A stretch of DNA of 64,000 nucleotides from Embleya scabrispora (GTDB taxonomy: Bacteria > Actinomycetota > Actinomycetes > Streptomycetales > Streptomycetaceae): positions 310,001-374,000 of the forward strand of contig NZ_MWQN01000001.1 in assembly GCF_002024165.1 (NCBI RefSeq), in the 5' to 3' direction. The number at the start of each line of letters is the position of its first letter. Position 1 is the first letter of the stretch. Of this stretch, positions 42,590-45,330 are shown one piece after another. The notes beneath the pieces are model-generated. The model made no database searches, had not been told where the DNA came from, and saw only the letters and a list, made by a program, of their open reading frames with translations. Both the position numbers and the translations under genes were made by a program.

Positions 42590-43639
42590 TCAACCGCCCG
42601 GGGTCGGATCCGGGACGAACACGGCCCGGTCCCGGTGGAAGGTCATGGTGCCGGCGGTGGAGCCGTCCCAGCCCAGGCCGCCGGGTTCGTAGCGCTTGCT
42701 GACGGTGGCCCACCACAGGTTGGACGTCATCACGTGCCCGACCTCGTCGAGATACGCGCGCATCCCCGGCTCCCCGCCGTGCGGGCCGGCCATGATCCGG
42801 TCGCGCAGGTCGAGGAACTTGCGTTCGGTGGCGTCGATCAGGCCGCAGATCTTGTTCATCGCCCCTTCGAGATCGAGCCCTTCGGCCTCGCCGAGGTAGT
42901 AGACCAGGTTCACCCGGTCGTCCATGACCAGTTCCTTGCGATAGGAGACCAGGTCGTTGATCAGCGTGTAGCCGTCGATCGCGGTGTCGTGGATGGCCAC
43001 CATGTCGGCGGTCCGGAACGCCTCCTGGGACAGCGCCACGCCGGGCACGCCCTCCTCGGCAAAGCCGAACAACCAGCGCACTCCCAGGCTGTGCCGGCGG
43101 TCGTCCATGTACGTGTCGTAGTCGGATATCCCGGCGTCGCGCCAGTTCTCCAACTCGGTGGTGAACCCGTGTGCGAAGTCCTCCATGTAGGAGACGAATC
43201 GGATCCAACGCGCGGGCGGCATGCGCTCGCGCAACCAGGAGAAGTCCTCGCGCAGGGGGGTCGAGCCGTCCCCCCAGCCGAGCAGGTCGGCCATGAAGCG
43301 GCCGAAGACGTTGCGGGTCGCGAACGAACTGCCGCCCAGGCCCGCCTTGTCCACGAGGCTGTTCTCGATGCCGATCAGATAGTTCATCACCTTGGCGGTG
43401 GTCAACGCGAGTTCGTAGTCGGCGTGCGGAACGGACAACGACACCAGCAGTGTTCCGTCCACGTTCTTGTCGATCCGGGCGGCGTCGCCCGCGTATGCGA
43501 AGCCGAGGTGGCGGTGGGCCCACCAGCGGGACTCGCGCATCAGCCGGTCCGTTTCCGGATGGAACGTCATCGGCAACAGGTTCGCGAGCTTCGGCAGGTG
43601 GAAGCTGATCGGGAGGTCGACGACGGTCGGTGTGCTCAC
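42590..43639 (-). CDS. Class I terpene synthase, degenerate aspartate-rich motif
   Basis: A 349-residue terpene synthase of the bacterial class I fold. The NSE metal motif is intact, N228-D-L-V-S232-Y-R-K235-E236 in GYTLINDLVSYRKEL, and the C-terminal R-Y pair is seen in VSKRYEPGG. In the helix where D-D-x-x-D normally sits (residues 83-98) the sequence is NYLIGIENSLVDKAG: E92-N93 and D97 stand in for the Asp cluster. WLFGFAEEGVPG and HDTAIDGYTLINDL are also family-like. GTG 43639 follows AAAGGAG and overlaps the stop of the class II cyclase (GTGA), so the two are translationally coupled. Predicted to ionise a cyclised diphosphate and complete the diterpene skeleton; product unknown. Confidence 0.86.
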   Translation of the reverse strand: MSTPTVVDLPISFHLPKLANLLPMTFHPETDRLMRESRWWAHRHLGFAYAGDAARIDKNVDGTLLVSLSVPHADYELALTTAKVMNYLIGIENSLVDKAGLGGSSFATRNVFGRFMADLLGWGDGSTPLREDFSWLRERMPPARWIRFVSYMEDFAHGFTTELENWRDAGISDYDTYMDDRRHSLGVRWLFGFAEEGVPGVALSQEAFRTADMVAIHDTAIDGYTLINDLVSYRKELVMDDRVNLVYYLGEAEGLDLEGAMNKICGLIDATERKFLDLRDRIMAGPHGGEPGMRAYLDEVGHVMTSNLWWATVSKRYEPGGLGWDGSTAGTMTFHRDRAVFVPDPTPGG

Positions 43640-45330
43640 GCCGGGCTCCTTTCGCCGGACTGCGTCGGGGTGTTCCTGCCCCCACCGCGCGATCCGGTGG
43701 AACCGGGCGCGGGGGCACGCAGGGCTGAGGGGTACGCCGACCGCGCGCCGGGGGCCCGCGGGCCGCTCGGGCGGCGCGTCCGGGCGGCCAGCCGATTGCC
43801 CAGGTGGCCGAGGGCGAGCAGGGTGAAGTGATCGGCCAGGCTGGGGATCACGTACAGGAACGGCCGGGTGCCCAGCATGTCCGGCACCGAGTCGATCCCG
43901 CCGTCGGCGCGTTGTGCGCTCAGCAGATACTCGAGGCCACGCGCCGCGGGGCGGGGGTCGCCCTGGCGGCACAGCGCCATCAGCGCGTACGCGGTGCTGA
44001 TCGCGTCGCTGGGGTCGCCGGGTTGTTGGCCCCAGCCGCCGTCGCGGTTCTGCCCCTCGCGCACCGCGGTCAGTGCCCGCTTGACGGTGGCCCGGTAGGC
44101 GTCGGGGCCGCACGCGTCGGTGGCGAGCAGGGCGCGGAAGATCGCGTGGTAGCGGCTGCGGCTCCAGTCCGGGTCGAAGGTGCCGTCGACGTGCTGCGCG
44201 GAGGCCAGGAATCGGCGTGCGGCGGTGATGCGTTGCACGTGCCGGGGCGCGCGTACGCTCAGCGCGTTGACCGCGGCCGCGGTCATGCACGCCTCCGAGG
44301 GCGCACCCGCGATGTACGTGGGGAACCCGCCGTCGGCACCCTGGTAGGACCACAGGGCGCGTAGGCCGCAGTCGATCGTGCGCCGGTAGCGCAGCGGGTC
44401 GGTGGCGTGCAGGAACTCGATCGCCACCGAGGTGTCGTCGACGTCGGCGAGCGCCGCGGCGTCGGTGTACGACCAGCCGCCGTCCATCCCTTGGCGGGCC
44501 GCGAGGTGGTCGCCGATGCGGCGGCGGACCTCCATCGGGGCGCCCGACGCGTCCAGCGCGACGCCCGCGGTGACCGCGCACCAGGTGTCCGTGTCGGTCA
44601 CGAACGGCACCCCGCCGTCCACTCGTTGGTGGGCCAGCGCCTTGGCCACGCCGTTGACCAGCACACCGTCCAGGTGCGGCCGACCGACCAGCGCGTGCAG
44701 CACCAGGAGGTGCACGAGCAGATTGCCCTCCCAGACCCCCGACGCCTGCTGGGTGTCCACCAGCATGCCCACCTCGGACGCGTCGATCTTGTCGCCGTGA
44801 CCGGTCAGATCGGCCGACGCGACCTTGAGCGCGATGGTCTGTACGTGTGCCCACGGGTGCAGGTTCCCGGTGTCGAACGCGCTCGGATCGAACGGACGCC
44901 GGAGCGCGCGCCGGGGCGGCCCGAGCAGAGCCAGCACCGTTTCGAGCAGGACCCGCTTGCGCGCGTTCAGGAACGCCGGCGCCTGCTGCAGGAAACGGTC
45001 GAGCAGGACGCCCGTATCGTGTTCGGCAACGTCGTCGGGGTGGCGTAAAGCGATCGTCGCGAGCAGCCGATCGAGCGGTTCGGCGCGATCGAGGCGATCG
45101 GCGAGGAACCGGGCGACCCGGCGGTGGTGGTCGGATTCGATCCCGGTGCGCTCCAGCAGGCGCAGCAGCAGCGCCGATTCGAGCACGCGGCTGCGGCACG
45201 GGCTGCGCACCGCCCCGTCGGGTTGCACCGACTCCGCGACCCTGCGACGCAGCCGCGCGGTGGCCACGGGGAGCTCCGGCACGAACATGTCCGCAGGCCA
45301 GCCCGGCATCCGGGTATCTCGCACGCGCAT
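43636..45330 (-). CDS. Class II (DxDD) terpene cyclase, diterpene-type
   Basis: A 564-residue protein of the squalene-hopene/oxidosqualene-like beta-gamma barrel family. The acid motif DVDDTS is at 296-301 (LADVDDTSVAIEFLHATDPL); several Q-x-x-D-G-G-W repeats occur (QGMDGGWSYTD, EGQNRDGGWGQQ, SAQRADGGID). Bacterial copalyl-diphosphate synthases have this length and a single DxDD, so protonation-initiated cyclisation of GGPP is predicted. Residues 530-564 are a Pro/Arg/Ser tail. ATG 45330 has GGAGG nine bases upstream; ATGs at 45309 and 45288 are alternatives. No GGPP synthase lies nearby, so C20 precursor must come from elsewhere. An AT-richer 266-bp upstream region holds the promoter. Confidence 0.88.
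   Translation of the reverse strand: MRVRDTRMPGWPADMFVPELPVATARLRRRVAESVQPDGAVRSPCRSRVLESALLLRLLERTGIESDHHRRVARFLADRLDRAEPLDRLLATIALRHPDDVAEHDTGVLLDRFLQQAPAFLNARKRVLLETVLALLGPPRRALRRPFDPSAFDTGNLHPWAHVQTIALKVASADLTGHGDKIDASEVGMLVDTQQASGVWEGNLLVHLLVLHALVGRPHLDGVLVNGVAKALAHQRVDGGVPFVTDTDTWCAVTAGVALDASGAPMEVRRRIGDHLAARQGMDGGWSYTDAAALADVDDTSVAIEFLHATDPLRYRRTIDCGLRALWSYQGADGGFPTYIAGAPSEACMTAAAVNALSVRAPRHVQRITAARRFLASAQHVDGTFDPDWSRSRYHAIFRALLATDACGPDAYRATVKRALTAVREGQNRDGGWGQQPGDPSDAISTAYALMALCRQGDPRPAARGLEYLLSAQRADGGIDSVPDMLGTRPFLYVIPSLADHFTLLALGHLGNRLAARTRRPSGPRAPGARSAYPSALRAPAPGSTGSRGGGRNTPTQSGERSPA

Follow-up and report, generated by a model that had tools for sequence, protein, structure and literature searches.

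The question raised by this locus is whether a class I terpene synthase whose first metal-binding motif lacks the first aspartate still works, and on what substrate, given that a class II cyclase is encoded directly beside it. The pair lies in a window of 64,000 nucleotides (the whole stretch of DNA analyzed) from the 10.96 Mb genome of the soil actinobacterium Embleya scabrispora. A literature search for terpene synthases of Embleya found no paper.

A Class II/Class I Gene Pair with Overlapping Frames

The class II terpene cyclase gene (P0002; positions 43636 to 45330, minus strand, 564 aa, ATG at 45330) precedes the class I terpene synthase gene (P0001, PF19086; 42590 to 43639, minus strand, 349 aa, GTG start at 43639). 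As the initial annotation had stated, stop and start share the four bases GTGA (43636 to 43639, minus strand). In the junction sequence, AAAGGAGCCCGGCGTGAGC, the string AAAGGAG stands six bases 5' of the class I GTG, an arrangement which suggests that translation of the two genes may be coupled. An acyltransferase gene of the Acyl_transf_3 family (PF01757; 40917 to 42290, minus strand) lies 299 bases downstream of the class I gene. A promoter and terminator scan gave nothing above chance.

The expected motifs are present in both proteins. P0002 carries the announced DxDD as DVDD at residues 296–299, invariant in 4/4 rows of the class II alignment, and P0001 keeps its NSE motif as NDLVSYRKE (N228 to E236), encoded at 42932 to 42958 on the minus strand as computed from the residue numbers and the start at 43639. 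By themselves the motifs are weak evidence, because shuffled proteins also yield them: an NSE-like string appeared in 409 of 20,000 shuffles of P0001, and DxDDT in 239 of 20,000 shuffles of P0002. The case for a gene pair beyond chance therefore rests on the Pfam profile and the near-full-length PDB matches. In the Pfam scan, residues 134–273 of P0001 match PF19086 with 82.6 bits (cutoff 23.7; E = 4.2e-23), and P0002 matches PF13243 (7e-15); the best near-full-length PDB matches reach 6.5e-49 for P0001 and 6.7e-79 for P0002.

The First Metal-Binding Motif of the Class I Enzyme

Most of the class I active site is conventional. The NSE motif fits (N/D)Dxx(S/T)xxxE, the PPi-sensor arginine is R181, the RY pair occupies residues 316–317, and position 235 is basic (Lys in P0001, Arg in the homologue from Streptomyces sp. 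150FB). At the place of DDxxD, P0001 reads I-E-N-S-L-V-D, just as first noticed. The changed motif is E92-N-S-L-V-D97 (codons at 43349 to 43366, minus strand, likewise computed from residue numbers and the start at 43639), within the residues 83–98 singled out earlier. An intact DDxxD elsewhere in the protein had been named as evidence that would speak against this reading; a string search of the whole protein found neither DDxxD nor DDxxx(D/E).

The best PDB matches of P0001 are 9lpb (titled terpene cyclase AriE, E = 6.5e-49) and venezuelaene A synthase, VenA (7y9g, 7y9h), homologous over nearly the full length with E = 1.1e-37. In the HMMER alignments, Glu92 falls on the first D of both VenA DSFVSD and 9lpb DNAMVD. 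VenA and P0001 both lack the second aspartate, and both have the NSE motif, the PPi-sensor arginine and the RY pair. However, VenA has an essential first aspartate, Asp115, together with Gln83, whereas P0001 has Glu92 and Val60. In VenA, Asp115 binds Mg-A and Mg-C, the D115N variant shows that the first aspartate is required, and Ser116 and Gln83 are proposed stand-ins for the missing second aspartate, the Gln83 mutants being insoluble (PMC10325987). The same paper cites earlier work in which the first aspartate alone (Asp94) of the DNAMVD motif is needed in Bnd4, reported as a eunicellane synthase. It describes a VenA/Bnd4 subclass with D(S/T/N)xx(x)D/E and a Gln/Glu about 30 residues upstream, and proposes that this residue, 32 residues upstream, compensates for the lost second aspartate (PMC10325987).

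P0001 has only part of this signature. Its second motif place is Asn93 and its last is Asp97, in keeping with the Ser/Thr/Asn and Asp/Glu of the subclass. The first place is Glu92 instead of aspartate, and the upstream Gln/Glu is missing as well: the place of VenA Gln83, in the stretch RQRNG, is taken by Val60 in P0001 and by Ala in the 150FB homologue, with a one-column alignment gap just before it. Asp61, beside Val60, is invariant in 5/5 rows of alignment A1. The motif of 9lpb has the same six letters as that of Bnd4, while ENSLVD differs from it at three of the six places; Bnd4 has its first aspartate and Glu62 where P0001 has Glu92 and Val60. The earlier remark that unusual class I motifs are already known thus holds for VenA and Bnd4, but in those enzymes the first aspartate is essential, and here it is replaced.

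A change at the first place has a parallel of another kind in the sesterterpene synthase SmTS1, for which Asn is predicted there (NDLTV; PMC10325987); in SmTS1, however, Asn is followed by Asp, and P0001 has Glu. For the eunicellane synthase MicA, by contrast, alanine substitutions within the DDxxE motif are reported as harmful, the second and last acidic residues being indispensable (PMC11250809). In a small open-access sample of the literature on atypical aspartate-rich motifs, seen in part, glutamate at the first place was not reported. Judged by homology, P0001 is a VenA/Bnd4/AriE-like synthase in which Glu naturally replaces the Asp that serves its relatives as first metal ligand; we found no earlier report of such a change in the literature searched.

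Structure prediction, recommended earlier for inspection of the metal site, served in part. The AlphaFold model of P0001 (mean pLDDT 63.1, and 43–51 across residues 91–110, with a five-row alignment as input) is usable for fold comparison, to which we restricted it; the metal site is absent from this weak model. SmTS1 is among its fold matches (29mu), at a low similarity of 17%. The model of P0002 failed (35.6).

Conservation and Origin of Glu92

We compared the first motif place in an alignment of 35 rows, each longer than 250 aa. The rows came from one contig scan and from searches that overlap one another, covering 394, 392 and 394 genomes and mostly scoring five candidates per genome. It is Glu in 6 of the 35 rows (E-type; the window and locus L001 are identical) and Asp in all 29 others. 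The E-type comprises seven loci, all with Glu: the window, L001 to L005, and a locus on a linear plasmid of Streptomyces sp. NBC_01471 (L017, L028 and L082 in our searches). The NBC_01471 gene, 59% identical to P0001, is broken by an in-frame TAG (L082:7226-10077) and likewise reads IENSLVD; the interrupted L017 was dropped from the alignment, and L059, a second piece of this gene, was never in it. In the existing annotation, the pieces appear as a hypothetical protein and as a terpene synthase of reduced length. In the six E-type coding sequences compared, the codon for Glu92 is GAG, and Asn228, Ser232, Glu236, Arg181 and Arg316-Tyr317 are kept in 6/6.

P0001 is 100, 97 and 90% identical to copies in three same-genus genomes. 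We take the window and these three genomes, which we regard as E. hyalina NBRC 13850, E. scabrispora DSM 41855 and Streptomyces sp. SID3343, as one Embleya-type group. Identity is 80% to a second E. hyalina copy and 60% to the 150FB copy. The second gene of E. hyalina NBRC 13850 (L004:10001-11050) is intact, and its contig ends some 11 kb away. When 396 genomes of the phylum were searched with a profile of alignment A1, the genome that contains the window was the only one with a match at E up to 1e-30.

Within the Embleya-type group (the window and L001 to L003), the class I gene with the changed motif is under purifying selection, with dN/dS of 0.00–0.16. The values for the class II gene (0.21–0.35) and the acyltransferase gene (0.31–0.44) are both higher. 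For the class I gene, dN/dS climbs to 0.21–0.28 against L004 and to 0.38–0.49 against L005. Simple decay or a sequencing error is an unlikely source of the glutamate, because it is kept in seven loci, is encoded by GAG in six coding sequences and stands in a gene under purifying selection in the Embleya-type group.

In a tree of 36 rows, the five E-type rows, among which L001 also stands for the identical window, form one group with support 100/100. As its sister (97/97) the tree places a class I gene of E. hyalina that reads DDAMGD and has a class II neighbor; the tree program flagged this row for its long branch. Because this sister branch is a DDAMGD gene adjoining a class II gene, glutamate at the first place is probably derived from aspartate; if the placement is right, the change from DD to EN would have come after the class II and class I genes were paired.

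The Class II Enzyme and the Question of Substrate

The initial annotation had likened the class II enzyme to CPP synthases and read the locus as a diterpene pathway. Homology gives this reading little backing. The ent-CPP synthase chain 5bp8, which we take to be PtmT2, is also a class II cyclase, but it matches P0002 only locally (residues 367–470, E = 0.0014). The nearest characterized relatives are drimenyl-PP (C15) synthases. P0002 matches the PDB chains 7xq4 to 7xra and a 539-aa cyclase (8zg0/8zg1) about equally; no paper was found in a literature search for the latter entry codes. Entry 7XRA is SsDMS (PMC13244436), whose chains match P0002 over residues 25–509. Over 510 alignment columns, P0002 also shares 36.7% identity with the class II protein encoded at locus L088, a protein that we take for CavC of S. 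clavuligerus because of a small gene upstream and a class I-like match nearby. CavC is described as the drimenyl-PP synthase of the cav cluster, and a Nudix hydrolase is encoded upstream of CavC as well as of SsDMS (PMC11035983), a point in which they differ from P0002. The DxDD motif is common to P0002, CavC and SsDMS. On this homology, P0002 is a class II cyclase of the SsDMS/CavC kind.

Searches with P0002 in 61 genomes including its own, in 150FB and in plasmids gave related class II genes with varied company. In L028, L034, L075, L084, L085 and L086 the neighbor is a class I gene; L083 has a weak class I-like match and a P450, L076 has P450s, L078 and L087 have a HAD phosphatase, and in L077 a class I match shares one long open frame with the class II gene. 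Because these partners vary, neither substrate length nor partner is readable from class II homology. On the class I side, too, the diterpene reading is loosened: VenA converts GGPP to a diterpene and accepts FPP and GPP as well (PMC10325987), and 150FB has no good class II match.

Some of these loci have features of their own. The L077 frame (L077:4739-11158) contains class I, class II, FAD-binding, berberine-bridge-like and SDR matches, from genes merged by the caller or from true fusions. The class II genes of L075, L084 and L086 (48–51% identical to P0002) have the acid motif DTDC, not DxDD, and each has a neighboring class I gene from a different subfamily. In L078 (8699-10866) and L087 (5010-7201), class II cyclases with DxDT are followed just downstream by a separate HAD phosphatase gene, an arrangement reminiscent of the fused HAD drimenol synthases divided into two genes.

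Precursor Supply and Tailoring

The window contains 61 genes from a simple gene caller, scanned against Pfam with E limits of 1, 1e-4 or 1e-5 by batch. The reported local absence of a GGPP synthase and a P450 is borne out, with no match to PF00348 (polyprenyl synthase) or PF00067 (P450) in 61/61 called genes, and within the window a six-frame search likewise gave no PF00348 match. Across the genome, the same search, proposed at the outset, located six PF00348 genes, all outside the window; the closest of them is on the contig of the window, at a distance of about 0.94 Mb. One of these polyprenyl synthase genes adjoins that of a 637-aa protein weakly like P0002, which we read tentatively as a squalene-hopene cyclase.

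To call the locus a two-step orphan was too strong, as the Acyl_transf_3 gene follows on the same strand and the E-type class I gene of 150FB is accompanied in its genome by weak matches to P0002 only (best E 2.8e-7). Homologues of the window acyltransferase lie downstream of the class I gene, on the same strand, in L001 to L003. In 150FB an Acyl_transf_3 gene is again downstream on the same strand, the class I frame running on to overlap its called start, and it is unrelated, being not alignable to that of the window (best E 0.52). A PapA_C-type gene follows the class I gene on the same strand in NBC_01471, no gene matching the window acyltransferase lies near the L004 gene, and L075 has a WS/DGAT-type acyltransferase gene two genes after the class II gene. 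Because acyltransferases of different families lie downstream, the product of the pathway may be an acylated terpene alcohol, as these neighborhoods suggest. We do not treat a shared acyltransferase as strong evidence, given the unalignable 150FB gene and the collinearity of the four Embleya-type loci well beyond the class II, class I and acyltransferase genes, which weakens arguments from shared neighbors.

Proposed Pathway and Alternatives

We lean, with modest confidence, toward a working two-enzyme terpene pathway in which the class II enzyme acts before a class I enzyme with a Glu92 metal site, perhaps toward an acylated product. In the scheme that we propose, the DVDD motif of the class II enzyme would supply the proton that turns a linear prenyl diphosphate, FPP or GGPP, into a bicyclic one. 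The coupled class I enzyme would then ionize this intermediate with a Mg2+ cluster held by Glu92 and by Asn228, Ser232 and Glu236, while Arg181, the basic residue 235 and Arg316-Tyr317 would bind PPi. The product, perhaps an alcohol, might be acylated by the neighboring acyltransferase.

P0001 is probably a functional class I synthase. Its catalysis is open to doubt because the first aspartate is required in VenA (D115N) and Bnd4 (Asp94), and because alanine changes in the DDxxE of MicA were harmful. The proposed pathway is further weakened because a separate actinobacterial clade with deviating motifs is reported to have given low-activity or inactive enzymes (PMC10509563), and because class I dN/dS is higher against L004 and L005 and the NBC_01471 copy is interrupted.

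The two genes might instead merely share an operon, the class I enzyme acting directly on linear GGPP or FPP as VenA does, and the class II enzyme making a separate product; we regard this as possible but rather unlikely. VenA, among the nearest solved relatives, takes all three linear diphosphates (PMC10325987), and the E-type class I genes of L004 and L005 have no class II neighbor; together with the weak 150FB matches, these genes mean that the class I enzyme may use a linear substrate. Moreover, the cav cluster also contains a class I cyclase, CavF, and its authors suspect that the class II and class I cyclases belong to two pathways (PMC11035983). Separate products sit poorly, however, with the four-base overlap in the window and with the adjacency of class II and E-type class I genes in five loci (the window, L001, L002, L003 and L028). 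One of these, L028, is outside the Embleya group, and its class II gene is only 44% identical to P0002; the class I gene of the sister branch also lies beside a class II gene.

That P0001 has lost its ionization chemistry and serves otherwise, assisting the class II enzyme or surviving as a remnant that binds PPi, is improbable: the first Asp, the second Asp and the compensating Gln/Glu are all gone, a class I copy is interrupted in NBC_01471 and inactive enzymes occur in the motif-deviant clade (PMC10509563), but the NSE motif, the PPi-sensor arginine and the RY pair are kept under the low dN/dS of the Embleya-type group, and the same residues persist in the L004 and L005 copies without a class II neighbor.

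Significance

Returning to the two-enzyme pathway, the fullest form of the proposal would be a class I lineage that builds its Mg2+ cluster on glutamate in place of the first aspartate, without the second aspartate or a compensating Gln/Glu, that arose on a bicyclic diphosphate from a drimenyl-PP-synthase-like partner, and that feeds an acyltransferase. We put this forward as a speculative and, taken whole, doubtful extension. Motif mining that demands the first aspartate would overlook such enzymes, and the E-type lineage is a natural experiment on the ligand requirement of the trinuclear Mg cluster. The locus also offers an uncharacterized class II/class I pair in which the class II enzyme is closer to the C15 (drimane) enzymes than to those that make CPP.
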